Shown here piece after piece: positions 8,805-31,472 of a DNA stretch of 64,000 nucleotides. Below the pieces are notes generated by a model. The model did not search any database, had not been told where the DNA came from, and saw only the letters and a program-made list of their open reading frames with translations. Both the position numbers and the translations under genes were made by a program. How positions within the stretch are numbered: position 1 is the stretch's first letter; every line of letters begins with the position of its first letter. Origin of the DNA: Dehalogenimonas formicexedens. GTDB taxonomy: Bacteria > Chloroflexota > Dehalococcoidia > Dehalococcoidales > Dehalococcoidaceae. The stretch spans positions 1,888,210 to 1,952,209 of the forward strand of contig NZ_CP018258.1 in assembly GCF_001953175.1 (NCBI RefSeq), given 5' to 3'.

Positions 8805-8918
8805 TCAAATTCCTTCAACCGATTGGTAGATGTGGTACAGGTAAATACCGGAGTTAATGTTTTGCCAGATTTGTTTTCATACTTCTATTGATACGAAGTC
8901 TTATTGTGAAGGACACGA

Positions 8919-8949
8919 GAGCGAGTGAGCCGGTTGGGCTCACTCGCTC
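8919..8949. terminator. Hairpin between flavin-fold gene and ribBA
   Basis: There is a perfect 13-base-pair stem (GAGCGAGTGAGCC and complement) with a 5-base loop. It lies directly downstream of the minus-strand gene 8971-9390. The T-run after it is short on either strand, so termination may be inefficient and could leave some read-through into ribBA. Confidence 0.6.
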
Positions 8950-8970
8950 TTTGTAAGCAGTCAATCCGAA

Positions 8971-9390
8971 TTACGCTAGTTTCTTGCCCTTATCCTGTGG
9001 AGCTTGAGAGAAAATCGAATCCACGTGGACAACTCCCACTCCAGTGATATCTACACCCATCGCTTTCTTCAGACCTTCGGCAAACTTATCAAAAAGTGGA
9101 CCTGAAGTCTCATACTTCTGGAAAGTCCCTTTAACTTGTATTGTGGTGAAAGGAGGGGCGATAGGAATCTTTACAGCGACGATCGCCACTTTTTTGGTTT
9201 CTTCAAGGTTCTTGAATGTCCTGGTAGTTTTGCCATATAGGTCGGCAAAAGCCAGGGTCTCTGCGTCCACCGCGGTCATGCTTGTTTTTGGAGTGACGTT
9301 GAGCTCTCCCTTTTTGTCGACTGTAGCCACCATCTTAGGTACCGAGGCATCTTGGAACAGATCGATAACTTCCTTGGGCATTTTCGCCAT
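8971..9390 (-). CDS. Pyridoxamine 5'-phosphate oxidase-fold (FMN-binding) protein
   Basis: The 139-residue protein has a split-barrel flavin fold: MPKEVIDLFQDASVPKMVATVDKKG, then NVTPKTSMTAVDAETLAFAD, TFKNLEETKKVAIVAV and VKGTFQKYET. These match the small PNPOx-like family that binds FMN or F420. The substrate is unknown. I choose ATG at 9390 over ATG at 9408 because GGAGGG lies between them at normal spacing. A strong promoter lies at 9455-9483. A shortened paralogue lies in inverted orientation at 11089-11247. Confidence 0.85.
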   Translation of the reverse strand: MAKMPKEVIDLFQDASVPKMVATVDKKGELNVTPKTSMTAVDAETLAFADLYGKTTRTFKNLEETKKVAIVAVKIPIAPPFTTIQVKGTFQKYETSGPLFDKFAEGLKKAMGVDITGVGVVHVDSIFSQAPQDKGKKLA

Positions 9391-13828: not shown

Positions 13829-15034
13829 ATGCTTCTTGACCTTACCATCGGGCGGAAAGGCTTTCTTACCTACCTGAAGTCTTTAGGCGGATCGAACATC
13901 GTGAAAATCGTCCCGTCTAACGGCGATGCCAGCGTATCGCGGGTCGCCGGAAAATGCCTTAAGGTGGTCTGCGGAGCCAATACCAGCTACCTTGACAACA
14001 TGGCCTGGGTCGGCGAAAAGACACCCCTTACTCTGTGCGACATCAGGATAAGCCCTTCATACTCGGTAAGTCCCAACCTCGGCGCGACGGAGCTTTCGGA
14101 AGCCCTTTCAAGGGTACTGCCATTCACCTCGGATGAGAACACCCGCCCGGTACTTCAATGCGTTCTCTTTCGAGTCAAGGACGGCAAGCTAACCCTCGTT
14201 AGCGCCGATGGCTACCGACTCGCCGTACTCAAACTGGATTTCGTCGGGGATGAGGGACAAGCTCTCGTTAGTCGCGATGAGCTAAAGGGCGTCACCGCCG
14301 CCCTAAGACGGGCGCGACGGGTCAGGCTGTCACTCGAAAAGAGGAAAGACAGCGAGGGGATGGACCTCAATCTGGACACCGAGCTAATCCGCTACGGATG
14401 GCGGGGATGCGCCGGTAACTTTCCAGACTATGAGAAACTCATACCCGCCGACTTCACTGCCCGCGCCAGCTTCGACACCAATGAGGCGCTCAAGGCGGTA
14501 AGCTCGCTCAAGGTCATCGCCAACGTCAAAGCCTATGCCATAGACCTCACCATCGGTAACGGCAAGGTGGTCATGGCGAACACCGACGACAAGGGCGAGG
14601 CCGAGATACCCGCCGACACTACCGGCGAGCCAATCAAGATAAGGCTTGACGGGGGCTATCTCGCCGAAGCTCTAAGGGCTTGCGGCGGGATGGTGGAGCT
14701 TAAACTCGTTGACGCAAGGTCGCCGATGCTTTTTGCCGCGCCGGACTATGAGCTGGTGGTCATGCCAATGCTTCTGCCGGAAGCCAAGAAGCCGAGGGAC
14801 GAAGCCAAAGCCGCCGAAAGCGGGGACAAGGCCGAAGCGAGCCAACCCGTCGAAGCCGTCGAGCCGAAGGTCGAGACAGTCGAAGCGGTCGCCGAGCCGG
14901 AAGCTAAAACCGCCGAGCCGGTCGCCGCCGAGGAAGTCGCCCAAGCCGTCGCCGAGGCCGAGGCCATCACGAAGGCCGAGAAGCCCAAGACCAAGAAACA
15001 CGGCAAGGCGAAAGAACCAGTCGCCGTAGCCTAA
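13829..15034 (+). CDS. Accessory DNA polymerase III beta-clamp-like protein
   Basis: The 401-residue protein contains a DnaN-type sliding-clamp core. LSEALSRVLPFTSDENTRPVLQCVLFRVKDGKLTLVSADGYRLAVLKL (about 95-145) matches clamp domain 1/2, and NFPDYEKLIP and the VMANTDDKGEAEI segment match later clamp repeats. The last 80 residues are a low-complexity Ala/Glu/Lys/Val tail ending in a basic KTKKHGKAKE stretch. It is unlikely to be the host replicase clamp, given the mobile-element neighbours, and may serve element replication or recruit polymerase. The frame stays open upstream of ATG 13829 back to 13709, but no better start is evident. Confidence 0.75.
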   Translation: MLLDLTIGRKGFLTYLKSLGGSNIVKIVPSNGDASVSRVAGKCLKVVCGANTSYLDNMAWVGEKTPLTLCDIRISPSYSVSPNLGATELSEALSRVLPFTSDENTRPVLQCVLFRVKDGKLTLVSADGYRLAVLKLDFVGDEGQALVSRDELKGVTAALRRARRVRLSLEKRKDSEGMDLNLDTELIRYGWRGCAGNFPDYEKLIPADFTARASFDTNEALKAVSSLKVIANVKAYAIDLTIGNGKVVMANTDDKGEAEIPADTTGEPIKIRLDGGYLAEALRACGGMVELKLVDARSPMLFAAPDYELVVMPMLLPEAKKPRDEAKAAESGDKAEASQPVEAVEPKVETVEAVAEPEAKTAEPVAAEEVAQAVAEAEAITKAEKPKTKKHGKAKEPVAVA

Positions 15035-16983: not shown

Positions 16984-17191
16984 TATACAACAATCTATCT
17001 AGTTCTGGGGGGCCACCTCAGAGGCTATAATGTGCATCGGCTCGTTGCGGTAGGTTTCAGCAATGCATTAAGCGTATACTAACTAGAGGCATCGCCGTAT
17101 TGTTCACGCAAAAACGGAAGCTTCTACACAAAAGCCGACCAGATATTTGTATCGTAGCGGCGTTGTCAGCGTAAATCACGGTATCACCTTT

Positions 17192-17389
17192 TCAGAAAAA
17201 TATGCAGCCCTGCTCTTTGAACTCCTCGACTTTGGCGAGGAGGAACTCTGTATCCACTTCCAGATATTCTGCAAGGCAATCAAGGCAAAAGAACCCCTTC
17301 GAGTCTTTGTTAAGCAACTTCTTGGTCAACCCGATTTCGTTTTTGCTCAGGGATTCTTTCTGGCACATATAACAGCTTTTCTTTTCCAT
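17192..17389 (-). CDS. Small zinc-ribbon protein at the 3' end of the BREX operon
   Basis: The 65-residue protein has two CxxC knuckles (SCYMCQKE ... GFFCLDCLAEYL), then an acidic helix and a terminal EEFKEQGCIFF. The pattern matches a small conserved zinc-ribbon family of unknown role. The ATG at 17389 lies five bases past the brxL stop (17394), so it is translated with the operon. It may be an accessory component or simply a passenger. Confidence 0.7.
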   Translation of the reverse strand: MEKKSCYMCQKESLSKNEIGLTKKLLNKDSKGFFCLDCLAEYLEVDTEFLLAKVEEFKEQGCIFF

Positions 17390-17393
17390 ACAA

Positions 17394-18884
17394 TTACACA
17401 ACTTCTTCAAGGTCTGGTCTGACGCTGAACGCAGGGATGTCCTTCCCGCGATATTCTACATCGAGTATACCCAGTTGGTACTTGATGGTATCCCTCATTT
17501 TACGTGCTCTGTCGAGGCAGTAACGTTTGAACTCGCGTGCGCTGATGTCGTCCGCACTGCGAACCTGCGGGAACAGCAATTTCAAGTATGCGGTAGCAAT
17601 GCGCTTAACCGCTTCAGTATCGCGTGTGTCCGCGGCTTCAGGAACCTCAACAAGTTCATCCACAATGGCGCGGTAGCTCATATCGTCACGCAGTTCGTGC
17701 ATTATCGAACAGAAGTATTCCGAGTTCAGTGCCCAACCCGCAATCTTAAGGTCGTCGTTCATTCGGGGTATATTCCACCCCTTTATGAAGCCGTGGAAAC
17801 GCTCAATTAACGCCGACTCATGGAATACAGACGGCAGTTCTTCAAACATATTGGCAAAGCCGTCCTCGTCCATCGTTTCCTTTTTGATGTTGCCGCAAAG
17901 GATAACGGCCGCCTCGGCGGTCCCCTCATAATTACCAACGGTGAAGATGCCCGATTCAAGATAACCTTTCAACGCTGCTCGCATTTCGTCAACGTCCGGG
18001 AAGGAAATGGTCTGTACTTCATCAAGCGTTATAAAGTCGTTGCCGGACACCAACCCCTCAACCCGTTTGTTCTGGTCATAGAACATCTTCGCCCGGCTCA
18101 TAACGCCACCGCTCGAAAGCCACCCGAAACGGCTGACACGACCGAACAGGTACGACTTGCCAGTTCCCTTTGGGGCAAGTTCAATTAGATTCAGTCGCTT
18201 TTCAACGAACGGAAGCAAACGGGTGAGCATCGTGAGTTTCTTTTCCTCGTCGCCGAGGTAACCGCTCGCGTTGTAGTCCACTGCGCCGAGTAGAACATCA
18301 AGCCACTCTGTCGTGGTGAATTCCCGACGGGCATCTTTGTAATAGTCGATATCAATGGTGTAAGGGCAAAATGTCTTAAACGCAGTTAGTTTAATTTTAC
18401 CCCTGTTTGCGCCCTTTGCCTTGTTTTTTGAAAACTCCATATCGTAGTCATCGGGCGGGCGATAGCCGATTTCGACCATTCCCCAAGTTTCGCGCCCGCG
18501 CACCAAGTCTTCCTTGCAGATTTGCCACACTGAATCTTCAATTATTGTATCCTTGCTCGTCAAGCCAAAGTCAGGCAAAGCAAACGACACCACACTCGTC
18601 CTGATGTCAATATCAACAGACACCTTAGCTAGGAACTTCACTCGCTCGTGTTCAATTACCACCTGATTCTTTATAGAAGTCCAATCGTCCTTTCGCGGCA
18701 AGTAAGTCCGTATGAAACGAACCAATTCTTCGGAGTCGAAGTGACCGTTCTCGTCCTCGAATTTTTTCAAGAGCCAGTCGCGCATAAAGGAAGGCAGGCT
18801 CAGAGCGGAGAAGAAGTTACTTCTTTTAAGGTCTTTATATACCACCATCTCGTCAAAACAATTTCGGAGTTTTTCAATCATCAT
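17394..18884 (-). CDS. brxL: BREX ATPase of the BrxL family (Lon-like)
   Basis: The 496-residue protein has an AAA+ core with Walker A LAPKGTGKS (236-244) and a Walker B-like FITLDEVQTISF. Conserved surroundings include TEWLDVLLGAVDYNASGY and FHGFIKGWNIPRM, typical of the BREX Lon-like protein. BrxL forms DNA-binding rings needed for phage exclusion in type 1 systems. This version is short and I see no C-terminal serine-protease domain with its Ser/Lys dyad. It follows pglZ by eight bases with GGAGG upstream and is the fourth core gene of a type 4-like order. Confidence 0.85.
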   Translation of the reverse strand: MMIEKLRNCFDEMVVYKDLKRSNFFSALSLPSFMRDWLLKKFEDENGHFDSEELVRFIRTYLPRKDDWTSIKNQVVIEHERVKFLAKVSVDIDIRTSVVSFALPDFGLTSKDTIIEDSVWQICKEDLVRGRETWGMVEIGYRPPDDYDMEFSKNKAKGANRGKIKLTAFKTFCPYTIDIDYYKDARREFTTTEWLDVLLGAVDYNASGYLGDEEKKLTMLTRLLPFVEKRLNLIELAPKGTGKSYLFGRVSRFGWLSSGGVMSRAKMFYDQNKRVEGLVSGNDFITLDEVQTISFPDVDEMRAALKGYLESGIFTVGNYEGTAEAAVILCGNIKKETMDEDGFANMFEELPSVFHESALIERFHGFIKGWNIPRMNDDLKIAGWALNSEYFCSIMHELRDDMSYRAIVDELVEVPEAADTRDTEAVKRIATAYLKLLFPQVRSADDISAREFKRYCLDRARKMRDTIKYQLGILDVEYRGKDIPAFSVRPDLEEVV

Positions 18885-18892
18885 CGTACCTC

Positions 18893-21136
18893 CTAAAACA
18901 AGTCATTAAAAGCATCATTGACTTTGCCGCTCTTGCTTTTCGCCTTAATTATGATTTTACCGATCAGATTGTCGCCTGCATAAACGTCCGCCGGATAATC
19001 ACTCGCCCGTTTTAAGTCGGGCAGTTTTACGGCATAGTGGTTGGCATCAATTTGCGTGGCAGGGTGTGGTTTTCCATCCAGGACAACGGACACATCCTGA
19101 ACGGGTGAGTTGAAGAACAAAATAACCTCTGTTCCAGTGCGGAAGTCAACGATCACTACCTCATTGACCAGTTTGACTGTTACGTTTCCGTTTTTCAGCG
19201 ATAGTTCTATAATCGGGACGATAACTTCTTCCAACGATGCGCCGCCGTGAACCTCCACGTTCGCTGCCCGGCTTCCTTTGAAACGGCCGTAATCGGCAAG
19301 TACAAGGTATCCATTTTCTTCTGCGGCAAACGGGAGATCATAAGGTTGGAACAGCTTACAGCAACGCCCCGAATGCGTGCCCTTTGTATCGGTTTCGTAC
19401 TGTTCCTCTTTGCAGCGCAGAACAGCAAGCCGTGACGCACCGTGGTCACTTACAATCAGGAAGCGTTTACAATGCCTTAGTGCAAGGTCCGTGGCTGCCT
19501 TACCAATCATTGCCTCTATAATGGCTATCTCTTTGGCGAGGTGGATAGGCAGTTCGTTGTTTGTGAAGTTGTAGCCACCCACATCATTGTGCTTGGTGTC
19601 ATCAAGTTCATTGTTCTTTTCCTTACGGCCTGGCCAAGCATCGAAAAAGTCACGATTCATTGACGTTATCGTCGGTAACTCCGCACGGGCGATGTTAACC
19701 CGAACCGATAGCCCTCGTTTCTGAGCTAGGGCTTCAATAAGAGCCAAATATTCAACGCCGAGCGCGTCTAGCCAGTATAGGTATGTGTCGGTTTTATCCA
19801 AACCGTCTATGATTTCGTTTCGTGTAGGCAAACGATTGAATTTCCGCGGACTGTGGGCGAGTTCATCAACCTTTTCCAAAAATCCAGGTTCAAGCCTGTT
19901 CGAAATCTTTTGCTGCTTGTACGCCTCGAAATAATCGGACAGCAGGTCGGCCATTTCGGGGCATTTGAAAACATACCTCTTCAAATATGCCGCTAACGCC
20001 GGATAAATGCTTTCAATTTGTGTAATCATGCCGTTCTGGGAAAGCCAAGCGATAATCTCCTCACGCTCGGATTTTGTGCTATCTGTCAGCTTATAAATGC
20101 TTTCAGACTCAACCTTTCGATTGTTCACAACGAAATCGGCGATGTCCGATTCCGGGAACTTCTCGACCAGCATCTTTCGTTCCCGATAGAACGCGACAAA
20201 TCGTGTGTCTGAGTGTTTAATTTCAATTATTGTATTAAGGACATTTCCGACGAAGTCTTCAAAACGCCTTGTTCTTTCTAACACAAAGCGGAGGTAACCA
20301 TTGGGCAATGTATCGGCTTTACATTTCAAGCAGATGAAATAGAGCCAATTGCAATAGTCATTACCCGAAACACGAGCATAGAAATCAGATTCCAGATTAC
20401 CGCCCAGTCCATGTTTCTCAAACACTTCATCGAGCGAGCCGTTACTCTTGTTCAATTCAGTCAATAGTTCTGTCCAACGAGTATCACTTCCACAGGAGCG
20501 TGGCAAAGCAAAGCAAATAGTGGAAAATTTAACTCCCTCGTAGGCACTGCTTATTCTGTGTACGGTGAACATAGCCTCATCGAGATCCACCGCTGTGTTA
20601 ACGACAACATTCCCACACCGACCGTTTTCAAGATCCGCGAGCATTACCTTGAAACCAGATAGTGCCGATAGTCCAACCGATGGAGCGGCAAGTGTAAACG
20701 ACAAGTTGCACTCCGCCTTATCAATTACACAATATCGACGGTTGTCAAAACGCGGGTCGGTCTGCAACCCGACAATTTGAGAAGCAAGCCCTCGTAGTAG
20801 TAACACGACTTTTACCCTGGTGATGTTAAGATCTTTTAATCGCGACAGGGCGCGTTTGGCTTCGTTGTTTCCGCGAAGCGCAAGGTATTCCCCAAACCCC
20901 GTCACAACGAACTTGTTACCTTTTGTGTTTACATCAATAGCTTCGATATAGGAGAGCAGTCCGTCAATGTCAGGCAGTTTGTCATTGCCGCTACAAAAGC
21001 TACTCATCTGGACAAAATCAAGCCCCAAGACTGATAACTCGGCTATCGCGGAAGCGTATTGTCCGTCGCTAACGAACAAGAAAAATGGCGTCTTGTCGGA
21101 AGATGCCAGGTATTTCTTCACCGAGTCAATCTGCAT
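18893..21136 (-). CDS. pglZ: BREX alkaline-phosphatase-fold protein PglZ
   Basis: This protein of about 747 residues has a PglZ domain in its C-terminal half: TYLYWLDALGVEYLALIEAL (metal/nucleophile region), RFLIVSDHGASRL (metal-binding D and H) and later EVHGGASLEEVIVPIIEL. The N-terminal half is specific to the subtype. PglZ is the hallmark of BREX systems and interacts with the modification/ATPase components. I place the start at ATG 21136 (MQIDSVKKYL), which has GGCGGGG upstream; 21154 is an alternative. Both overlap the end of the upstream brxC part (stop at 21126). Confidence 0.9.
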   Translation of the reverse strand: MQIDSVKKYLASSDKTPFFLFVSDGQYASAIAELSVLGLDFVQMSSFCSGNDKLPDIDGLLSYIEAIDVNTKGNKFVVTGFGEYLALRGNNEAKRALSRLKDLNITRVKVVLLLRGLASQIVGLQTDPRFDNRRYCVIDKAECNLSFTLAAPSVGLSALSGFKVMLADLENGRCGNVVVNTAVDLDEAMFTVHRISSAYEGVKFSTICFALPRSCGSDTRWTELLTELNKSNGSLDEVFEKHGLGGNLESDFYARVSGNDYCNWLYFICLKCKADTLPNGYLRFVLERTRRFEDFVGNVLNTIIEIKHSDTRFVAFYRERKMLVEKFPESDIADFVVNNRKVESESIYKLTDSTKSEREEIIAWLSQNGMITQIESIYPALAAYLKRYVFKCPEMADLLSDYFEAYKQQKISNRLEPGFLEKVDELAHSPRKFNRLPTRNEIIDGLDKTDTYLYWLDALGVEYLALIEALAQKRGLSVRVNIARAELPTITSMNRDFFDAWPGRKEKNNELDDTKHNDVGGYNFTNNELPIHLAKEIAIIEAMIGKAATDLALRHCKRFLIVSDHGASRLAVLRCKEEQYETDTKGTHSGRCCKLFQPYDLPFAAEENGYLVLADYGRFKGSRAANVEVHGGASLEEVIVPIIELSLKNGNVTVKLVNEVVIVDFRTGTEVILFFNSPVQDVSVVLDGKPHPATQIDANHYAVKLPDLKRASDYPADVYAGDNLIGKIIIKAKSKSGKVNDAFNDLF

Positions 21137-23429
21137 TATAATCCCCGCCCCCATTCGTCAGTATTTCAATTCCGACCGTAATGCTATCCTTAACAAGCCG
21201 TTTGAGGTACTGCTTCAACTGGGTATCGTCCATCTGGTCGATTTTCAAGAGTACCTTATCGCTGCCGCCGGCGTTGTATTCGGCTTCGGCGAGCTGCTTT
21301 ACCTTGCCCTTTACACTTGGATTTTCACGCCAATCATAAGTATCAACGGAAAGACGGTCGAGGGTATCCCTAACCTTATCAAGGTGAGGAAGCAACGTAC
21401 TGTATTCGCCGACGATGTCACACTTGAACGCAGCGTTTCGCTTTTCGTCGTCCGCTAAACAGTCGAAAAGTGTTGTGGTTTCGAGGAATGCAAGAGCAGA
21501 TTTGATTTCGGCATCCGTTCCCCAATTCCTGTTTAGCGTTTCAAAGGCTTTCTTTGCCTTCTCAAACTCAGCTTCGGTAACACAGCACAGAATGGGCGTC
21601 CTGTAACGGTTCGACCACTCGCGTGGGTTTTTCGTTCCAGTCTTGTCTTTCCACAAGCGGAAAAGCTGCGACTTCAGCTGGTTCTTTCGGAACTCCTCAG
21701 CGGCTTCTTTCACCTTGACGTTACAATCGGTTTTTGGTAATTCAAACAAGCCTGTCTGCAGTTTGCTCTTAACGTCGGCAATATCGTTATCGCTCAGGTC
21801 TTCGAGGTATGGCTTATAAAACTCAGCAAAGACCCGCCTGTCATTGTTTAGTAACTCCCTGATTGCGGTGCCGTGCGCCACCAGTTCTGAATGGAACGCC
21901 TTTAGATGTTCGGGTAAGAGATCTTCCTGCTTGCAGATTTTCAGTAGAATGTCGAGGACTTTTACCAGCGCGGGGTATTTCGTCCGCAGAGCCTCGCAGG
22001 AAATGCCGATGAACTTCATCCGGTCGCGCCACTCTTTGCATGCTTCTGCCAGGGAATGCGCCGAAACGCTCAGAATTGAGTTGCTTTCTTTAACCATGCC
22101 ATACTCAGTCAATAGCTTGCGGATTTCGTCCTCTCCGGTTTGCTTGTTCCACAGGCACGAGTGTTTTACCTCAAACAAACGGCGAGTGTCGGCAAGCACA
22201 TTATTCTCCGCGCCGATTGCCGTAGCGAGTTCCATTATCTTGCCGCCCTCAAACGAGCGAAGGTACTCGCGCATACCCTTTTGGCAGTTGTCACTCGTGA
22301 TCAAAGCGAACAGATTTTCACCGAGCGATGGTTTCGCGGATGCAATCTTACCAATCTCAACAGCCTTTTTATGTGCCTCGTTTCCTTCTTTCTGCACGAG
22401 TTCGATGTATTTCTGAACCATATCGAAAATGGCAACGGTGTCCACTTCTTCAAGGCACCATACAGGAAGGCTTAAGCCCCGCATTTTTGCGGTTACGGCC
22501 ATAGCCGCCTGTCCCGCAGATGAACACGAATTCGGTTGAATACCCCATGCTTTTTCAGTGAGTTCGTAAAACGCCATCTCATCTGCGGTCATCTTTACGA
22601 TATAAGTCGGTTTCGGTGATTTGCCGATATAGTTGCCGATCATCTCCGCAAGTTTGTCTTGCGTGATCTGCTCGTGGCCGCCGGATGAATCGCTGTAACG
22701 GAACGGCTCGCTGCCATACTCTTTCAAGAGGAATCCCGTAATGAACGCCGAGAGATTGCACGGAGCAAAACCATAGGTCTCCTCGAGGAAGTCGTAGATC
22801 TCGCCGATTGAAATCTGTCCGTCACGGGCAAATGCGACTTCGATTCGCTTATCAATCTCAACCTTAATTTTAGAGATGGGTAGCGAAGATGCCATCGGGC
22901 TTTCCCAATACTTGTCAATCTTCCAAACGGTCGGCAGCACGTGCTTTTCAACGCCGACGACTACACCGCTTGTGGTCTGCATAATGCCGGACTTCGCTGA
23001 CTGCCTCATCGCCGGAGTTATCTTCAATTGGCTCTCTGTAAGGTTCTTGGCAAAGTCGAATACATACGGGAATTTCGTTGCCACAATCGTCTGAAGGACA
23101 CTTGCCACGCCTTGCCCGTTGCCAAGTTTCTCGCCTTCCTGGTTGGCATAGGTGTACACGACAAACTGACCGTTACAGATGCGGTTTTTCCAGTCTTGGT
23201 CTAAAACGCGCTTTGCCTTGTCTGAATTTTCTCGCGATGGCGTGTTGTTGTTGCGTTGGTAATATAACGCCATAGCTGAGAAGTCCACATACTGCTCAAA
23301 CGCCTCTGAGCCAAGTGGCGTAGAAAGCGCGTCAATAAACACGATGTTTTCGTACTGCTTATCAGCGACCGCCGTCTTGATGGTCTTACGGAACGTCGCC
23401 CCCTTCCGCCTCGTCCTTGGCGAAGGCAA
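21126..23429 (-). CDS. brxC: BrxC, C-terminal part (separated by frameshift)
   Basis: This 767-codon frame continues the BREX ATPase. Its proper sequence starts at GATFRKTIKTAVADKQYENIVFIDALSTPLG, directly where the upstream frame (23386-25302) loses sense. It carries helical regions including GEIYDFLEETYGFAPCNLSAFITGFLLKEYG and a KSPKPTYIVKMT segment. The nominal ATG at 23429 lies inside the overlap and is unlikely to be a real start. Removing one G from the G5 run (C5 at 23399-23403 on the plus strand) would fuse both parts into a protein of about 1,390 residues, within the size range of BrxC/PglY proteins. Confidence 0.85.
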   Translation of the reverse strand: MPSPRTRRKGATFRKTIKTAVADKQYENIVFIDALSTPLGSEAFEQYVDFSAMALYYQRNNNTPSRENSDKAKRVLDQDWKNRICNGQFVVYTYANQEGEKLGNGQGVASVLQTIVATKFPYVFDFAKNLTESQLKITPAMRQSAKSGIMQTTSGVVVGVEKHVLPTVWKIDKYWESPMASSLPISKIKVEIDKRIEVAFARDGQISIGEIYDFLEETYGFAPCNLSAFITGFLLKEYGSEPFRYSDSSGGHEQITQDKLAEMIGNYIGKSPKPTYIVKMTADEMAFYELTEKAWGIQPNSCSSAGQAAMAVTAKMRGLSLPVWCLEEVDTVAIFDMVQKYIELVQKEGNEAHKKAVEIGKIASAKPSLGENLFALITSDNCQKGMREYLRSFEGGKIMELATAIGAENNVLADTRRLFEVKHSCLWNKQTGEDEIRKLLTEYGMVKESNSILSVSAHSLAEACKEWRDRMKFIGISCEALRTKYPALVKVLDILLKICKQEDLLPEHLKAFHSELVAHGTAIRELLNNDRRVFAEFYKPYLEDLSDNDIADVKSKLQTGLFELPKTDCNVKVKEAAEEFRKNQLKSQLFRLWKDKTGTKNPREWSNRYRTPILCCVTEAEFEKAKKAFETLNRNWGTDAEIKSALAFLETTTLFDCLADDEKRNAAFKCDIVGEYSTLLPHLDKVRDTLDRLSVDTYDWRENPSVKGKVKQLAEAEYNAGGSDKVLLKIDQMDDTQLKQYLKRLVKDSITVGIEILTNGGGDYNAD

Positions 23430-25302
23430 TAACGGCGTGGAAATTCCACCCCGTAGCCTTGTCCCGGAGAATGTTGAGCGTACGGGTTAAGTCTGCGGCG
23501 GTCACGGGCATGATTTTCCCCGTACCCGGTTCCGACTCAAAGCGTAGACGGAGAGCGGGTGAAAGCGACAAAACGGTAGAAAGCCCCCCCTCAGTTACCA
23601 GTTTCGAGGTTGTGCTATTCTGCCGCACATCTTTCTTGTGGGCGTCAATTTTGGCTTGATCTCCCGCAAGCACGGCCGCCGCATAAGCATACCGTCCACC
23701 GCTTATCGGATTGGCGACTAGAACTCCCTTTTCCTTGAGACCTTTGGCAATATTCTTGCAGGACACGTCCAGACCAGATGAGATACCTGCAAATACATAA
23801 CTGAGGTTCTGTTCGGTTGCTTTGAAAAGGTCAATCGCACCACCCAACCTCTGGTCAATCGCCTGCATAATAAGAATGGCTTTCAGAACAGCTTTCTCGT
23901 CCTCGCGTAAATTCTGTTGCTGTTGAAAGGTATCCAGAATCAGGCGGATATCGGAGGTAAGATGATTTTTGCCTTTCTCGTAGAAGAAGTTCCAAAGCAT
24001 ATCCACCGTGAGAAGTGGGTGATCATCAAAGGGGCCTGCGTGATCAATGAACCATTGGAACGCCTTCACATCGTCCGTATTCGAAGTCTTTATGAAGTCG
24101 AACATACTGCGCTGGTTTGATTTGAAAGCGGAGGCTATGTTTTTCAAGAGTAGTGCTGTCATCGGATGAATAGGCAATATTTTCTTCATCACTTGATGAT
24201 CTATAATATTTGTCGCCTTCATTACCGCTGTGCGAGCACTATTTGTTTGCGAGCCTAAATCGCCATCCACCAAAGTATCCCAATCCAACCTTGCGGCGGG
24301 TTTTACAGTAAAAGCTTCACCGATGAGGTCGAACGCGATGTTGTCGGGCAAGACAATGGGTATTGAGATAAAACGATCACTCACCTTGGATTGATTTCCC
24401 CTGTCGTTGTCTGCCACGTAGATTTGTTGAGGCTCATGTGTCACCACAATGAAGTAGAAGGGCTTATTCTGAACCAGAGCGGCAATTTTTTGAAACTCCG
24501 AAAGGCTTTCCCGGTTGTTCTTGAAGTAATCTGAGAATTCATCCCAAATAAAGACAATCCTGACGTTGTTGTGGTCGATGATGTCAGTCAGCCAATTGAT
24601 GAGCCTATCTGAATCGATGGTCAGCGCGGTAATACCCTCTTTATTTGCGAGACGGAAGATGTTACTCACTAAAGACTTAACTTCGCCATTCTTGCGGAGC
24701 ATATTCAACACATCATCGGCGGTGGACTGGGAGAATAGTGCTCTCCATTCCTTACCAAGGTTTTGCAGCAGGCTGTTGAACATCAGCTTATGATCGGTGT
24801 CTTCGAGCCACGCAATAATGCTTTCCTTAAGAGTATTCTCGCCAAGATAGGACACTTTCTGCTGCACAAGGGCGGACTTTACGCTTTCCTGAATGGCAAA
24901 GAAAAGGTCACGGGCCGACATAATACCGCCAGAAGCATAACGGTGAGCCACCACGATTCCCTTTTTCTTATGACCAATCAGCTTTTCAAGCAGGTCGCTT
25001 TTCTTTTTCAGGGGATCATATATGTCCCAATATGCACGCAGTTCCACCTCCGGCACTTCGAGGATTTTTCGAAGGGCATAGGCGCATTGGGACTTGCCTG
25101 TTCCGTATGCACCCTCAATCCAGAGCGTCTTGCCGTTGTTTTGCCGCGCCAAAGCACGCTCCATTTCGGTGAGCATATCAATAAACGTGCTGTGCGGATA
25201 GGTGTTGTCCCAGGGAGCACCGGCTTTGATTGCGGCATCGTCAATGCAAGGGAAATACCTCTCGTCGATGTCGAAGTATTCGCGGTATTTATTATTGGTC
25301 AT
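23386..25302 (-). CDS. brxC: BrxC, N-terminal ATPase part (frameshifted)
   Basis: The 638-residue frame has Walker A GAYGTGKS (64-71), a Walker B IVFIWDEFSDYF near residue 250, and a following RESLSEFQKIAALVQNKPFYFIVVTHEPQQ sensor region. Together these mark the P-loop ATPase BrxC/PglY. Its start overlaps the brxP stop by four bases. It ends DEAEGGDVP, where a +1 shift at a G5 run breaks the frame. The split may be a real mutation, a slippery site allowing occasional full-length product, or a sequencing error. Confidence 0.87.
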   Translation of the reverse strand: MTNNKYREYFDIDERYFPCIDDAAIKAGAPWDNTYPHSTFIDMLTEMERALARQNNGKTLWIEGAYGTGKSQCAYALRKILEVPEVELRAYWDIYDPLKKKSDLLEKLIGHKKKGIVVAHRYASGGIMSARDLFFAIQESVKSALVQQKVSYLGENTLKESIIAWLEDTDHKLMFNSLLQNLGKEWRALFSQSTADDVLNMLRKNGEVKSLVSNIFRLANKEGITALTIDSDRLINWLTDIIDHNNVRIVFIWDEFSDYFKNNRESLSEFQKIAALVQNKPFYFIVVTHEPQQIYVADNDRGNQSKVSDRFISIPIVLPDNIAFDLIGEAFTVKPAARLDWDTLVDGDLGSQTNSARTAVMKATNIIDHQVMKKILPIHPMTALLLKNIASAFKSNQRSMFDFIKTSNTDDVKAFQWFIDHAGPFDDHPLLTVDMLWNFFYEKGKNHLTSDIRLILDTFQQQQNLREDEKAVLKAILIMQAIDQRLGGAIDLFKATEQNLSYVFAGISSGLDVSCKNIAKGLKEKGVLVANPISGGRYAYAAAVLAGDQAKIDAHKKDVRQNSTTSKLVTEGGLSTVLSLSPALRLRFESEPGTGKIMPVTAADLTRTLNILRDKATGWNFHAVIAFAKDEAEGGDVP

Positions 25303-27749
25303 TTGTTATATCCCCTCTCAAACAAGTCGAGTACATCTTTGGACGATTTGTCCTCCGCAAGCGTTATCTTTTCAAGGTCATGCGTGAATGACGCGGTTAT
25401 GAAATTAGGATACTTCGCCGACAACCCTAAGAGTATCGGTGTCATGTCGTCGCGGTCAAGCCCGAAGATACGTGTGGGACTTATGCCATCGCGATCAATT
25501 CTATCGTTTAAGAGCGTGGCGAGAGTGAATTCCTTGTAGTCGTTGCACTTCTCCGCAAACTTAAACAAACCGTAGAGCACCACCCGTGGATCGCTCACCA
25601 TACATTTCGTGCGGACAAGGTCGCCATCATCGGTGATAAAGCCCCAGTGAAGACTTGTCCCGAGGGGCGTTTTGACCAGACGCTTATAGGATTTAGCGAT
25701 TGATTTAGCGTCTTTCGGCTTGACATCAACGGCTGTCAGCATATCCTCGACCCTCTGACGTGGGTAAGTTCTGCCGATATCGAACTTGTTGACATACCAC
25801 TCCATCTGTGGATTTTCGGAGACAAGGTTGATAAGAATCAAACCTTGCGCCGTGTCCGTTTCCCAGCCAATCTGAGAGGTTAACTCTGCAAATGGCGTGA
25901 AGTGGTTATTTTCATTTAAGGAAGCATCCTTAAGGAAACGCCTAAATATATCGAACATCATCGGTCCCAGGGTATGTTCCGAAAAAAATGCCTCCTTCAG
26001 TTCAAAGAATGAGCGCAGCCACTCTGGTTTCGGTGCGTGGTCAGCAAATGAGTTTAGGCTTTTCATCGAGTTCCCTCCTCCTTGTGGATGGCGTAACGAG
26101 TGGAACAACAAACAACCGCTATCTATTGCATGGCACTCATGACACCTGATACAGTCATTTATTTGGACTTTACCTTCCGCAAAACTTATACATCCATTTC
26201 GGCAGTTCGTTTCACAAACTCGGCAACCTTTGCAGTACGACGCTTTTCGGAACACCTGCCGGAATATTTTCCCGAACGCGGGCTTCTCTTTCAAAATGGA
26301 TTCAGGTAATGCCACGATGTATCCGTTTTTATTTGCCCGAACGGAAAACCAAATACGTTCGCTCTCGAAGATAACTGAATACTGGCCGTTGCAGCCGGTT
26401 AAGTCTCCAAGTGTCTTTATCCATTCCAGCCAGTTGGAATCAGGGTCCGTAATTGTTAGCGTTAGGTTTCCATTTGTGATCTTTTCAATGCATCGGAATG
26501 CATTGTTCGATAACTCCCGACCATTTTTCCTGGCATTCCAGCCACCGTTTAGGATATAAGACTCCGTGTTGCTTGTCTTGCGCTTGTCGCCGTCGTAGGT
26601 AGACTTAATTAAGTCGATATATATATCAATCTCAGCGGGGTAGCTGCTTCGCCGCAGATAGTCACTCGAGCCGCCCGACATAGGACAGAACAAGCAACCA
26701 GCACGACCGTTACCTTTTTTATAAGTTTCGTTGATTAGAACGTCATTCGTATATATATAAAGCCATATCTCCGCAGACGTCCATTCAAGGATTGAATTAT
26801 GACTGAACTGTCCCTTTTGTTTTGCGCCGTAATTCTCGTACTTGTATGTACTTCGCGCCACACTCTCCTGTGCTCGGACTCCAACAAAGTCCAGACCGAT
26901 AAAGTCGTTCTTGCTGGTTACTTCTCTAAGTTTCAATGTCTGTGGGGTGCTTTTGTGTACAGAACAGCACCAACGAAGGACACGCGACGGGGGGCCGAAC
27001 AACTCCCACGACTCCTTTGGGTTGAGGTGCGATTTTGCAATGTAGAAAGGTATCTCGTCCTCAACGCACTGTTGCTTTGTTTTCCTGATAACCTCGTAGG
27101 TGTCGGGAAACTCCATGCCCGTATCGCCGAACACCACAACAAAGCTACCTTTGGGCAAAGCTTTCTTTACAAGATCAAGAAGGACACAACTGTCCTTGCC
27201 GCCCGAAAACGCCACGTGGAAGCAGTTGAGCCTGTTCTTGTATATGGTGTAGATAGCAAGGATCTTTTTGACAGTGGTCTGCTCGATGATTTCAAGCATT
27301 GCGCGGTTTGCCTCAACCATTGCCACAACATCAATAGGGCGTAGAAAGTTTCCGTTTGGCTCTGGTTTTACAATACCGAATACATTGCCCTTTTTATCAA
27401 TGAATGACGGACGTTTGTCAGGTAAGTCACAGATCACCTTCTGGGTTACTTTGCCATCGGGAGTTTCCTTGTATTCACTGCACAAATACGCGAGGTGTAT
27501 CTCAGGTGCTGTGTACAGATTTCCACCTTTTAACATAGCAACAAGCTTACCACGATACCAATAGGTGTTCGCCTCTGCCCACATATAGGGTCGATCGATT
27601 TGGTTATCGTACTTCCAATACTTATCGAAGCCCAGTACGTCCAATTCAGGCGCGTAAACCGGGCGGGGTTCTTTTGAGAATCCGGTCGGCGAGGAATTAA
27701 GAAGTATCCCGCCCGTTTCACAATCGTAGGTATACGAGTACACCTTCAA
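25299..27749 (-). CDS. brxP: BREX type 4 PAPS-reductase-like protein BrxP
   Basis: The 816-residue protein has an N-terminal region, then a PP-loop PAPS-reductase domain with SGGKDS (182-187), GDTGMEFPDTYEV and the family's GCLFCPMSGG. A ferredoxin-like cluster follows (CKGCRVCETNCRNGC ... CIRCHEC, about 510-550). A C-terminal DUF4007-like region (about 560-816, NHFTPFAELTSQIGW) completes it. PAPS-reductase-like enzymes with DUF4007 also occur as DndC partners in DNA phosphorothioation. In type 4 BREX this gene takes the place of the PglX methylase. It overlaps both neighbours by four bases. Confidence 0.88.
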   Translation of the reverse strand: MKVYSYTYDCETGGILLNSSPTGFSKEPRPVYAPELDVLGFDKYWKYDNQIDRPYMWAEANTYWYRGKLVAMLKGGNLYTAPEIHLAYLCSEYKETPDGKVTQKVICDLPDKRPSFIDKKGNVFGIVKPEPNGNFLRPIDVVAMVEANRAMLEIIEQTTVKKILAIYTIYKNRLNCFHVAFSGGKDSCVLLDLVKKALPKGSFVVVFGDTGMEFPDTYEVIRKTKQQCVEDEIPFYIAKSHLNPKESWELFGPPSRVLRWCCSVHKSTPQTLKLREVTSKNDFIGLDFVGVRAQESVARSTYKYENYGAKQKGQFSHNSILEWTSAEIWLYIYTNDVLINETYKKGNGRAGCLFCPMSGGSSDYLRRSSYPAEIDIYIDLIKSTYDGDKRKTSNTESYILNGGWNARKNGRELSNNAFRCIEKITNGNLTLTITDPDSNWLEWIKTLGDLTGCNGQYSVIFESERIWFSVRANKNGYIVALPESILKEKPAFGKIFRQVFRKASYCKGCRVCETNCRNGCISFAEGKVQINDCIRCHECHAIDSGCLLFHSLRHPQGGGNSMKSLNSFADHAPKPEWLRSFFELKEAFFSEHTLGPMMFDIFRRFLKDASLNENNHFTPFAELTSQIGWETDTAQGLILINLVSENPQMEWYVNKFDIGRTYPRQRVEDMLTAVDVKPKDAKSIAKSYKRLVKTPLGTSLHWGFITDDGDLVRTKCMVSDPRVVLYGLFKFAEKCNDYKEFTLATLLNDRIDRDGISPTRIFGLDRDDMTPILLGLSAKYPNFITASFTHDLEKITLAEDKSSKDVLDLFERGYNK

Positions 27750-30151
27750 CCCCTCCTTTCACGTATGGCTTTCGCCTTATATATAATTTCATTAACTTTG
27801 CTTGTTGTACTTCTGCCTGTGTATCCGGCATCAAAGAGGAATCTGCCAACGGTCCTGTCCGTCAAAGGGACATCGGCATTCGCAACAGCGTCGGTCATAA
27901 TCTCTGTGTAGTCCAGGCTGCAAATTTTGCGTATAACCGCTCCAGCGTTGCGCGAGTTCACTGACGGGGTATCGAATCGAAACTTTTTGCTGAACCGTCG
28001 GCAATAACTTTCGAGGAGAAACAAGTTCCAAGTCTGCCTGCAATCAGGGAAAGCCCCGAAGGTTGTGAAAGATTTAAGTGGCAAGTAGTCGCCATCGATA
28101 AACAGTTCAATTGCGGCATCAACCGCCTCGGCATCGAAGTGAACATACTTATCTGCGACGTATGTGTCTTTATCGATACGAACCAGAACAGCGTTGCCAG
28201 CTTCCATCGGAATCCAACGATGAACTTCACCCGTTAGTTCCTTTTCGTAGTTCAGTAGGTCGTCAAGCGAGCATTTGTCGATGGTTCGGCAACGATCTTT
28301 CATAATGGTCAGTGCGTTAAGGGTGTCGCCTTTACGCGTAACGATTTTGCCGCACTTGTCGAACTTGTCCGATAGGCAAATGCAGAAGACGGCATTGTGA
28401 ACCGCTGTGACAGACAGTTCATAGTTGCGCTCCTGGATGTTCCTGAAAGGTAAGTCGGTGATGGAGGTATAACCGCGAGCGTTGCACTCTTGCATAGCCG
28501 CTTCGGTGATGATTTTACGTTCCTCATTGCTGATATCAATTCGGTTGACGTGCGTGAAGGTCTCCACTTTGCTCCATATGAAATTGCCGTTCTGACCAAG
28601 GGCGTACTTAATTCTATCGATGGGTATGTACTGCAACCGTTTAGCAAGTTGCTCGTAGGTAAGAAGCACATCGTCTCCCCAGACACGGAGGATTTCGCTC
28701 TCAAGAGCCGAAAAAACCGAAGCGTCCATGTGGCCAAAATAAGTTTGTGTGAACGATAGCTTCGGGAACAGCCTACGGAGAATGCCAACCAGCATATCCT
28801 CGGAGACTACACTCGCGCCGAATAGCCAATTCTCGTTCTTGGCATAGAATTCGGCAAAGAAGATAGCTTGGGCTCCATCGGAGAAGTATTCATCTACTAA
28901 TTCTTTGATTCGCCCTTTAGTCTCTGCCGACACGGCATATACCTTGCCGTCATAGGTAGTTCCACAAGCCGAAATGTACCCTTTCAATTCCTCGTCAGGC
29001 AGCACGATTTCCTCGCCAAAATCCTTTGCGGCAAAAGACCTGAATCGCGCCAACTCAATAGGGGAGTTCAGCCTGTATCCATTGGCGAAATGTGCCGAAA
29101 GAACATTAGTCAAGTTATCGACGGCCACAGGATCAAGCGCAGGCTTTGTCGAAAGCGCAGGGGCAACATGCGCAGGGTGCGAGTCTGTTGGTTTATACCA
29201 CCAAGCATCCCTGTAGTCGGTACTTCTCCCGCCACCTTCCTTAAATAAAAAGTGAAACCCTGTGCCGCGCAACTTCATCATTATGGTGGTCAATTTTCTG
29301 TCTCCAATGACCCATAACGCCCCGCCAGAATTACGTTTATCCACATATTCTAATTTAAGGCTCTCAACCAACTGAATCACGTCAGTCTCGTCAGTTTTCT
29401 CGACCCTTGACGTGGCTTCCGAAATGTGTTGCAAGTATCTCATTAAACATCCAATACCGGCAGAAAACATCCCCGAGCTTGACGTGTTCACTTGCTTGTA
29501 GTTTGGAGCAGCTTTGAAAATGTCCCAATAGGTGTTTAGTTCTTCTGGTGTATGACATGAGAAAACGCACCTATCATCCAATATGACAGGTGTCTCAAGT
29601 TTTCCGGGTGCGGAGCGGAGTGCGTTCATATACTGCCGTGCCACATTTTCTAGATACAAAGTGCCGTTAGCATTAGGTTGCATAACCAGCCATGTGATTA
29701 CAGCTTCGGGGTCGATAACTCCCTCTGACGAACGGTCGGGAACGATAGCCGATCCCCCCTCTTTATCCTCGACAAAGGCGGCAATAGCCGCTTTGTGGAC
29801 AAACGGCTTCTCCCTAAGAAACTGCAAATATAATTGCCCGGCAACGACGAATACCTTGTATGTATTCCTGTCAGTTATGCGTAGTAACTTTGCTCCAATG
29901 AGTTTGTTGTAAATAGATTGAAATATACTAAACTGCGTGTATCCCCAAACGCTGGTGGAACTAATCTTTTTTCGGACGGCATATCCCGAAATCTTCTCCA
30001 AACAGGATAAAATATCTTCAGGGGAATACTTCTTTGTGTTGCCGTCAGTGAGCCAGTTTTGAAACGATTCTCTCATGCTCGAAACGGACGCCAAGGAAAC
30101 CTGCTCAACACCAGGATTCACGGCTGTATTCACGAGATCTAATACAGCCAT
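27746..30151 (-). CDS. Uncharacterised 801-residue protein heading the BREX operon
   Basis: I do not recognise this family. The start is set at ATG 30151 because AAGGAGG lies nine to fifteen bases upstream, so the longer GTG reading from 30232 is unnecessary. The N-terminal 100 residues look like a helical DNA-binding module (FQNWLTDGNTKKYSPEDILSCLEKIS ... VWGYTQFSIFQSIYNKLI). The middle and C-terminal parts have winged-helix-like segments (VLLTYEQLAKRLQYIPIDRIKYAL; TDRTVGRFLFDAGYTGRSTTSKVNEIIY). There is no obvious nuclease, methylase or P-loop motif. The four-base overlap with brxP ties it to the defence system, and it may provide target recognition or phage sensing. Confidence 0.8.
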   Translation of the reverse strand: MAVLDLVNTAVNPGVEQVSLASVSSMRESFQNWLTDGNTKKYSPEDILSCLEKISGYAVRKKISSTSVWGYTQFSIFQSIYNKLIGAKLLRITDRNTYKVFVVAGQLYLQFLREKPFVHKAAIAAFVEDKEGGSAIVPDRSSEGVIDPEAVITWLVMQPNANGTLYLENVARQYMNALRSAPGKLETPVILDDRCVFSCHTPEELNTYWDIFKAAPNYKQVNTSSSGMFSAGIGCLMRYLQHISEATSRVEKTDETDVIQLVESLKLEYVDKRNSGGALWVIGDRKLTTIMMKLRGTGFHFLFKEGGGRSTDYRDAWWYKPTDSHPAHVAPALSTKPALDPVAVDNLTNVLSAHFANGYRLNSPIELARFRSFAAKDFGEEIVLPDEELKGYISACGTTYDGKVYAVSAETKGRIKELVDEYFSDGAQAIFFAEFYAKNENWLFGASVVSEDMLVGILRRLFPKLSFTQTYFGHMDASVFSALESEILRVWGDDVLLTYEQLAKRLQYIPIDRIKYALGQNGNFIWSKVETFTHVNRIDISNEERKIITEAAMQECNARGYTSITDLPFRNIQERNYELSVTAVHNAVFCICLSDKFDKCGKIVTRKGDTLNALTIMKDRCRTIDKCSLDDLLNYEKELTGEVHRWIPMEAGNAVLVRIDKDTYVADKYVHFDAEAVDAAIELFIDGDYLPLKSFTTFGAFPDCRQTWNLFLLESYCRRFSKKFRFDTPSVNSRNAGAVIRKICSLDYTEIMTDAVANADVPLTDRTVGRFLFDAGYTGRSTTSKVNEIIYKAKAIRERRG

Positions 30152-30176
30152 TCCTTGGACTCCTCCTTCTTTCTGA

Positions 30177-30406
30177 TTAGCTAGACTCCATTTGATTCCC
30201 AGTGCGAACGTAGTAAATACGCGCGGGACCAACCTGGCGAAAAGTTACGTCCCCTCTTTCTTCGAGCACTTTAAGTATTCCAGCCATATATTGCCGGTTA
30301 GTCTTTAGTCTCTCTGCCAGTTCTTTAACACTAAGGCCAGGCTCTTTACTTAAATATCTCTAACTTGTCCCGCAAAATCAGGCTTGTTGGTAATGTGTGT
30401 AGTCAT
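30177..30406 (-). pseudogene. Frameshifted winged-helix regulator upstream of BREX
   Basis: From ATG 30406 the frame reads MTTHITNKPDFAGQVRDI and then stops. In the next frame it continues without a start: YLSKEPGLSVKELAERLKTN, then RQYMAGILKVLEERGDVTFRQVG, then PARIYYVRTG, ending at 30177. Joined, the two parts give a 75-residue winged-helix protein of the KELAERL...RQYMAGIL type. One base is missing near 30350-30362. The gene sits 26 bases ahead of the BREX operon, where a transcriptional regulator would be expected, so the loss may have changed operon control. Confidence 0.78.
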
Positions 30407-30578: not shown

Positions 30579-31472
30579 ATGAGTATTAGTTTCCCGGTAG
30601 GCAGGAATCCTTCGGCCATTTGCTTCGATGGCAATAACATTTGGGTAGCGAACGCTGGTAATAATAGCGTCAGCAAGTTACGGATGGACGATGGAAGTCT
30701 CCTGGGAGATTATAAGGTAAGCGGTCGCCACCCTTGCGCGATTTGTTTTGATGGCACCAATATATGGGTAGCCAACAGTGGTAGCAACAGTGTCTCGAAG
30801 CTACGAGTCAGTGATGGCAGCCTCTTGGGAAACTACACCGTAAATGCCAAGCACCCTTGCGCTGTTTGTTTCGACGGCACCAATATTTGGGTGGTTAATT
30901 ATCGAAGTGAATACGTCTCCAAGCTACAGGCGAGCGACGGTGTTCTACAAGGACATTACGATGTAGCTTCCGCCGGTTTGGATAGTAGCCATCCTTGCGC
31001 AATTTGTTTTGATGGCGACAACATCTGGGTGGCAGACGTGAATAGCAATATTCTCAGCAAGTTATGTGCAAGCAATGGTGGTCTATTAGGGAATTATCCA
31101 GTGGCTGGAACTGAGAACCAACAACCTTGCGCGATTTGTTTTGATGGAGCCAATATTTGGGTAGCAAATAATCGAAGCGATAGCGTCTCAAAGCTGTTGG
31201 CCAGTGATGGCACTTTGTTAGGGACCTATCCTGTCGCCGGTTCCGGTAGGCATCGACCTTGCGCAATCTGTTTTGATGGCGCCAACGTTTGGGTAGCAAA
31301 TAATAAAAGTAATAGCATATCCAAAATTCGCACGAGTGATGGGTTTTTGTTAGGAAATTATCGCGTCACCGGAATAGCGTCTAGAAACTGTCATCCCCGG
31401 GCTCTTTGTTTCGATGGAGCGGATATTTGGGTAGCAAATAATAACGATAACAGCGTCAGCAAATTGGATTAA
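30579..31472 (+). CDS. Seven-bladed beta-propeller repeat protein
   Basis: The 297-residue protein consists of seven consecutive repeats of about 40-47 residues. Each has the form PCAICFDGxNIWVANxxSNSVSKLxxSDGxLLGxYxV. The last repeat breaks off after SVSKLD and the N-terminal MSISFPVG could supply the missing strand, giving a closed seven-bladed propeller of the YncE/Vgb type. Most blades carry two Cys in PCAICFD, which is unusual. There is no signal peptide, so the protein is probably cytoplasmic. No Shine-Dalgarno site is evident. It directly follows the divergent BREX promoter region. A ligand- or protein-binding role is a guess. Confidence 0.8.
   Translation: MSISFPVGRNPSAICFDGNNIWVANAGNNSVSKLRMDDGSLLGDYKVSGRHPCAICFDGTNIWVANSGSNSVSKLRVSDGSLLGNYTVNAKHPCAVCFDGTNIWVVNYRSEYVSKLQASDGVLQGHYDVASAGLDSSHPCAICFDGDNIWVADVNSNILSKLCASNGGLLGNYPVAGTENQQPCAICFDGANIWVANNRSDSVSKLLASDGTLLGTYPVAGSGRHRPCAICFDGANVWVANNKSNSISKIRTSDGFLLGNYRVTGIASRNCHPRALCFDGADIWVANNNDNSVSKLD

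Follow-up and report, generated by a model that had tools for sequence, protein, structure and literature searches.

BREX systems are anti-phage defenses of bacteria, and type 4 is a rare kind that marks host DNA with sulfur. The original paper on the BREX types is reportedly that of Goldfarb in 2015, and that on phosphorothioation by type 4 is said to be that of Yuan in 2026. Phosphorothioates are made by brxPCZL (PMC11931770, PMC12839542), with sulfur supplied and transferred by the PAPS-reductase and a desulfurase (PMC12839542). The main text of the 2026 BREX census lists as type-4 components BrxC, PAPS-reductase, DUF4007, BrxL, PglZ, a desulfurase and a small zinc finger, so that the zinc-ribbon protein discussed below has already been mentioned, and it proposes that DUF4007 in BrxP is a BrxA-like DNA scanner (PMC12839542). 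BrxC is the hub ATPase of type I BREX, where BrxA attaches to it and modulates the binding of BrxC to DNA (PMC13326643). The available text of PMC11931770 and PMC12839542 gives no explanation of how a phosphorothioate BREX selects its sites.

We have analyzed a window of 64,000 nucleotides from Dehalogenimonas formicexedens, whose genome is a single 2.09-Mb contig. An operon on the minus strand, running from 30151 to 17192, comprises in order an 801-residue leading gene (the lead), brxP, brxC, pglZ, brxL and the gene of a 65-residue zinc ribbon (Table 1). An earlier note on this DNA had read the order brxP, brxC, pglZ, brxL as that of type 4 and had seen a small zinc-ribbon protein at the end; both observations are borne out, the former by matches to PADLOC and NCBIfam models. 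The range of 17192 to 30406 that it gave includes the operon, but 30406 is the start of a small, frame-broken wHTH ORF upstream.

Table 1. Features of the BREX locus, in coordinates of the window.
Feature	Coordinates	Strand	Description
small wHTH-type regulator ORF	30180..30406	(-)	frame-broken: starts MTTHITNKPDFAGQVRD-, continues -YLSKEPGLSVKELAERLKTNRQYM... in another frame
lead gene	27746..30151	(-)	801 aa; ATG 30151, AAGGAGG upstream
lead module m1	29804..30073	(-)	~90-aa helical repeat, predicted tyrosine-recombinase core-binding (SAM-like) fold
lead module m2	29423..29716	(-)	~98-aa repeat related to m1
lead ZorC-like segment	29120..29404	(-)	short match, C-terminal ~57 residues of ZorC (PADLOC 'EH signature')
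lead C-terminal core	27749..29119	(-)	~455 aa, conserved, predicted tandem winged helices (pLDDT about 93)
brxP	25299..27743	(-)	PAPS-reductase/PP-loop sulfurtransferase with 4Fe-4S-like cysteines; most likely start GTG 27743
brxC N-terminal part	23386..25302	(-)	638 aa, Walker A GAYGTGKS
brxC C-terminal part	21126..23429	(-)	767-aa ORF; frame break near 23407-23394
pglZ	18893..21154	(-)	BREX-4 type, 753 aa
brxL	17394..18884	(-)	496 aa, BrxL_N + AAA ATPase, short form
zinc-ribbon gene	17192..17389	(-)	65 aa, CxxC...CxxC, weak DUF2197 similarity
desulfurase remnant	17153..17179	(-)	nine codons, VIYADNAAT, of a DndA/NifS-like cysteine-desulfurase gene; homology then lost

Family searches assign all the core genes to type-4 BREX with very strong scores. 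BrxP contains the SGGKDS loop and matches PADLOC PDLC02510 (E = 3e-256) and PF01507 (1e-29); over residues 571-808 it is also similar to the short BrxP model PDLC02511 (1e-6), with no match from Pfam DUF4007, a BrxA-like module that in type 4 is frequently part of BrxP. This PAPS-reductase takes the place of the PglX methyltransferase, and ORF and family searches found no methyltransferase gene between 30406 and 17192. A BrxC-family ATPase is encoded between brxP and pglZ by two ORFs that jointly span positions 2-1374 of the 1376 in PDLC02485. PglZ is of the BREX-4 class, matching PDLC02554 (1e-273), the NCBIfam model 'BREX-4 system phosphatase PglZ' (3e-185) and NF033445 (617.8 bits against a cut-off of 140). 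BrxL lies 3′ of pglZ and matches PDLC02505 (2e-228), PF13337 (3e-110), PF20442 (3e-30) and, above its cut-off, TIGR02688. By its gene content the operon is a BREX system of type 4, the kind that phosphorothioates DNA.

The window thus shares with the brxPCZL systems (PMC12839542, PMC11931770) a PAPS-reductase BrxP, BrxC, BREX-4 PglZ and BrxL in the same order. PglX is likewise absent, and relatives of the window have a zinc-finger protein and a cysteine desulfurase downstream. It differs in having a conserved lead gene 5′ of brxP and a long C-terminus of BrxC and, in the window copy itself, in the splitting of brxC and loss of the desulfurase. There is also a resemblance to the Ssp system of single-stranded phosphorothioation (SspBCD), in that the N-terminal part of BrxC matches SspC models and BrxP matches SspD, but the Ssp-like loci (L025, L156) have neither lead, PglZ nor zinc-ribbon gene. 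The operon was probably acquired horizontally, because a BrxP match of comparable strength is absent from seven congeners, and a BrxP search of 400 Chloroflexota genomes returned only its own copy and one Ssp-like locus. No convincing integration repeats flank the operon. The genome scan described below found a lead-bearing operon in another chloroflexote, Flexilinea (L049).

Other genes of the window may be recorded here. To the left of the operon a DnaN-like protein (beta clamp) whose tail is rich in A, E and K is encoded at 13829-15034, near inverted repeats (12782-12811/13743-13772), and is possibly part of a mobile element. A beta-propeller (Vgb/NHL-like) gene at 30579-31469, with about seven repeats spaced by 123-138 bp, is divergent from the BREX operon. 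At 4176-5759 there is a complete gene for a reductive dehalogenase, and a related shorter ORF on the opposite strand (1801-3144) looks like a decayed paralogue.

The lead had been described as belonging to no known family, and this holds. No Pfam, NCBIfam or PHROGs model matches it, its sole PADLOC match is the 57-residue segment from the C-terminus of ZorC, and no sequence relative was found in the PDB. Searches of plasmids and, with a single-sequence query, of viral contigs found nothing, while a search of 301 Chloroflexota genomes for the family gave, outside its own genome, only the short ZorC-like segment. A match in a phage collection (MT835511) was rejected as a phage genome; it is an unverified gut scaffold carrying bacterial housekeeping genes.

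When 84,980 species genomes were scanned with an alignment of five lead sequences, 46 loci were obtained. In 42 of them brxP lies directly 3′ on the same strand, the other four being fragments or contig ends, and brxC, pglZ and brxL follow wherever the contig is long enough. The survey of brxP neighborhoods that the earlier note proposed therefore rejects the absence of this gene from all other brxP loci. The hosts span about ten phyla, many of them being metagenome bins, and include Desulfobacterota, Bacillota, Synergistota, Spirochaetota, Bacteroidota, Chloroflexota, Verrucomicrobiota, Planctomycetota, Thermotogota and Fibrobacterota, together with the archaeon Methanoregula.

The bias of a search based on the lead is removed by selecting instead on PglZ (NF033445). 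The genomes searched in this way comprised ~344 Lachnospirales, 344 Bacteroidales and 345 Desulfobacterota, the group names being inferred from the center genomes. Neighborhoods were annotated and whole genomes searched with the core of the lead, and exclusion of the three search centers left 21 type-4 systems. The core found in the window (core I) is present in 11 of these, including weak or partial matches in G683 and G481. Two more (G754, G620) have at the same position a gene whose N-terminal modules are shared and whose core is divergent, and in another two (G650, G1314) the ORF in the lead position is unrelated or not matched to the lead. In six systems the lead was not found: four Bacteroidales, G1273, and G725, whose contigs are short. 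For two of the four Bacteroidales the contigs are too short to include an upstream gene, and no core was found anywhere in the genome. This comparison of sequences shows the lead gene to be a conserved part of a lead-bearing type-4 subtype. Its place at the head of operons from dozens of unrelated bacteria makes it probable that it genuinely belongs to the system, as a part that recognizes DNA. The main text of the 2026 census makes no mention of it (PMC12839542), although an earlier mention in the supplements, in Goldfarb 2015 or in Yuan 2026 is possible.

The zinc ribbon was surveyed in the same way, and is present in all 29 lead-bearing genomes with 41-86% identity. In the PglZ-selected set, with G725 set aside, it occurs in all 13 genomes that carry core I or core II and in one of the seven others, a co-occurrence with a chance probability of about 2e-4 (hypergeometric). 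BrxC of lead-bearing loci is about 1378-1426 aa long, against 1137-1186 aa in the lead-less loci L024, L226, L227 and L228; the missing part corresponds to residues ~1091-1346. Type-4 systems of Bacteroidales and Methanosphaera are without lead, zinc ribbon and long BrxC C-terminus. From this joint presence and absence across genomes we infer that the lead, the zinc ribbon and the C-terminal segment of BrxC are largely one co-inherited unit. The exception is L231/G1273, with a long BrxC and neither lead nor zinc ribbon. Type 4 thus splits into two testable subtypes, one having all three elements and the other none. Separately, we observe in L231 an extra ORF of 243 aa resembling the C-terminus of BrxP, between brxP and brxC (8499-9227).

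A four-base overlap of the lead with brxP, previously proposed by taking the first available start codon, does not survive, but coupling of the two genes does, through a different layout. BrxP of the relatives begins MYSYTYD, and the equivalent start in the window is a GTG two bases after the lead stop, with its ribosome site, GAAAGGAGG, within the last codons of the lead. A Shine-Dalgarno sequence in the 3′ end of the lead, with NTG-TAC/T soon after the stop, is shared by the majority of the 34 loci compared, and this conservation supports the coupling.

Comparison of the loci shows that the C-terminal core of the lead is constant and that the array of modules forming its N-terminus varies. 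Its length ranges from 446 to about 1320 aa, with 0-3 copies of the m1/m2-type repeat (~90-100 aa). Several leads of 485-510 aa are nearly core only, as are those of L030, L034, L036, L042, L044 and L063. Between the window and L029 the lead core is 82% and BrxP 88% identical, and the N-terminal parts of the lead give no significant alignment; a relative of module m2 lies in a separate upstream frame in L029.

The position 5′ of brxP is sometimes occupied by other genes. In L213, L214 and L078 the gene directly 5′ of brxP has a second core (core II, with the motif IIRDIQPxWxxxLPxLPGxxxWTPLLLQSxLRF) and N-terminal modules in common with core I; remote homology between the two cores is suggestive (hhalign P 1e-4, probability 58%). 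A third kind, seen in L215 (98-1054) and L232 (5040-6152), encodes mutually similar proteins of 319 and 371 aa with no supported similarity to core I, even remote, or to core II; that of L232 matches PADLOC PDC-S57. A further N-terminal domain of ~110 aa with an RNxNG motif, found at L023:13133-13460 and in the lead N-termini of L027, L028 and L213, is reminiscent of the N-domain of ScoMcrA-type HNH restriction proteins. L213 has a PADLOC HNH match.

An AlphaFold2 model of the lead calculated with 43 sequences has a mean pLDDT of 80.6, rising to about 93 over residues 340-801, where successive helix-helix-helix-hairpin units are predicted. With this core, Foldseek found at E < 0.001 only the tandem winged-helix proteins of the UFL1 complex (UFL1/DDRGK1, E 1.5e-4), followed by ESCRT-II and the C-terminus of SelB (E 0.028 for SelB). 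Residues 478-537 match single winged helices with Z up to 9.2 (60 residues, rmsd 2.3). The N-terminal pair of repeats (pLDDT 84.5) has its best fold match in the core-binding domains of tyrosine recombinases, led by the integron integrase 2a3v (VIA Z 7.0, 80 aligned, rmsd 3.0) and including Brujita integrase, XerA, lambda Int and Cre; retroviral matrix proteins score similarly. The VIA Z values, those of the winged helices included, are modest, of a size common by chance and not alone proof of homology. Independently of the fold comparison, Pfam Phage_int_SAM_5 (PF13102) matches the relative L023 with 9e-12. A viral structure library gave nothing significant with the lead. Structure prediction therefore supports the DNA-binding-like modules suspected in the earlier note: in the prediction the core consists of winged helices in series, and the repeat most often seen in the N-termini has the DNA-clamping fold of tyrosine recombinases. 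Unlike those enzymes, the lead has no catalytic recombinase domain, and carries the fold in up to three tandem copies.

The ZorC-like segment of the window lead matches the C-terminus of ZorC (Zorya, EH-signature) with E 4.5e-6, but only over 57 of 570 residues and beside brx genes, so the lead is not a Zorya protein; the segment is nearly absent from other leads, and so is a borrowed module. A second copy lies elsewhere in the genome, at G000:C1:262513-262749 (L022), in a frame with two stops, possibly the remnant of another defense gene. BrxA/DUF4007, with its tripartite HTH, is like the lead a multi-winged-helix and probably DNA-binding BREX accessory. It has three HTH units as against the longer string of the lead, which also possesses the variable N-terminal array, shows no sequence similarity detectable in family searches (Pfam, NCBIfam, PADLOC BrxA), and occurs beside, not in place of, the C-terminal region of BrxP. 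The fold comparison of the lead with BrxA is dominated by a single winged helix.

The reading that we prefer, with a probability of about 0.5, is that the window carries a degraded copy of a lead-bearing type-4 subtype in which the lead would be a DNA-recognition or adaptor subunit. The core would dock on the BrxC-BrxP machine, while the exchangeable N-terminus, largely of DNA-clamping folds, would contact DNA and direct the machine there. The lead would be made in step with BrxP, whose ribosome site sits inside its gene. It would help to pick both the sites thiolated by BrxP and BrxC, with sulfur from the cysteine desulfurase, and the unmodified DNA on which PglZ and BrxL act. Against a role on DNA, winged helices also mediate protein-protein contacts, as they do in UFL1 and ESCRT-II, the best fold matches of the predicted core. 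DUF4007 of BrxP has been proposed as a scanner, so that target choice may already be provided for, and the lead is not needed for phosphorothioation in general, because the Bacteroidales and Methanosphaera systems do without it. A more specific proposal, which we offer tentatively, is that in the larger of the two subtypes the lead is an exchangeable specificity subunit, whose docking core and swappable DNA-recognition modules set both the sites of sulfur and the foreign DNA attacked. Its role would then be comparable to that of HsdS in type I restriction, with which it has no shared sequence.

The N-terminal arrays vary freely in kind and length where the cores are 75-85% identical, a pattern like that of sensors subject to an arms race, and they include defense-type modules (the ZorC-like segment, DUF4357, DUF7662, sigma-r4 and the HNH-associated N-domain). 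These properties would suit a sensor and trigger, or an adaptor for phage proteins: products or structures of the phage would be recognized by the variable N-terminus, and the signal passed on through the core to BrxC or PglZ. We consider this possible but somewhat doubtful, as the commonest module has a recombinase-type DNA-clamping fold and the core is winged-helix, both pointing to nucleic acid. By its sequence the lead could serve either in site selection or in the sensing of an invader.

As to the state of the window copy, brxC had been taken as a single gene, its split having gone unnoticed, and the operon, by implication, as intact. The two brxC ORFs overlap by 44 nt and match positions 2-627 and 627-1374 of PDLC02485. 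In 31 of 32 complete relatives, L041 being the exception, there is one ORF of full length, and the window junction sequence (23407-23394) is in none of the relatives examined. Beyond the zinc ribbon there is a nine-codon stub where 16 of 29 relatives have, 14-71 nt on, a full NifS/DndA-like gene. This fraction is close to the 56% of taxa in which, according to the main text of the census, a linked cysteine desulfurase occurs without being obligatory (PMC12839542), so that its loss is no bar to membership of type 4; three other cysteine desulfurases in the genome could replace it. The upstream wHTH gene is probably frame-broken too. With two frame breaks and a truncated gene, the operon looks like a recent pseudo-operon, and the BREX system of this genome is probably inactive. 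Breaks in brxC, brxP or the lead occur, at other positions, in L041, L214, L229, L077 and L230, which are mostly metagenome-derived. In L077 (6656-12007) a 146-aa N-terminal part of brxP is separated from the rest by an intervening sequence of about 2.9 kb, as might result from the insertion of a mobile element or an intron.

The frames are long and undecayed, so that sequencing error or very recent loss may account for the breaks. The breaks are of single bases, one at a G run, and the brxC frame remains open for 767 codons downstream. It is conceivable, if on balance improbable, that they are base-calling errors in the genome record and that the operon is intact but for its lost desulfurase; that a one-contig genome should have two breaks and a truncated gene together in a single operon argues otherwise, and the breaks elsewhere, although most are metagenome-derived, suggest real, recurrent loss. 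We think it quite unlikely that the operon as recorded is fully functional, with BrxC assembled from two pieces or made by programmed frameshifting and the desulfurase acting in trans. Both halves of brxC are long open frames that overlap, other desulfurases are available, and 13 of 29 lead-bearing genomes have none directly after the zinc ribbon; yet brxC is a single ORF in nearly all complete relatives, programmed frameshifting is rejected by the lack of conservation, the desulfurase is a stub and the adjacent wHTH gene is apparently broken. No homologue of the wHTH ORF was found in the fetched loci besides the window's own genome, and other loci have different small HTH genes. That the lead is itself merely an operon-linked transcriptional regulator is very improbable, for although it has tandem HTH-like domains and no large gene precedes it in the operon, other, small HTH genes are frequently present upstream, and a size of 446-1320 aa, a constant core, tight coupling to brxP and co-variation with the zinc ribbon and BrxC length are not regulator-like.

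On the preferred reading of a degraded lead-bearing system, the window copy is a natural example of the decay of a BREX operon. For the family, the lead is a direct candidate for the component that selects sites, being conserved, missing from the component list in the main text of the census, and built of a constant core with swappable N-terminal modules. Reconstitutions with brxPCZL only may omit a needed subunit.
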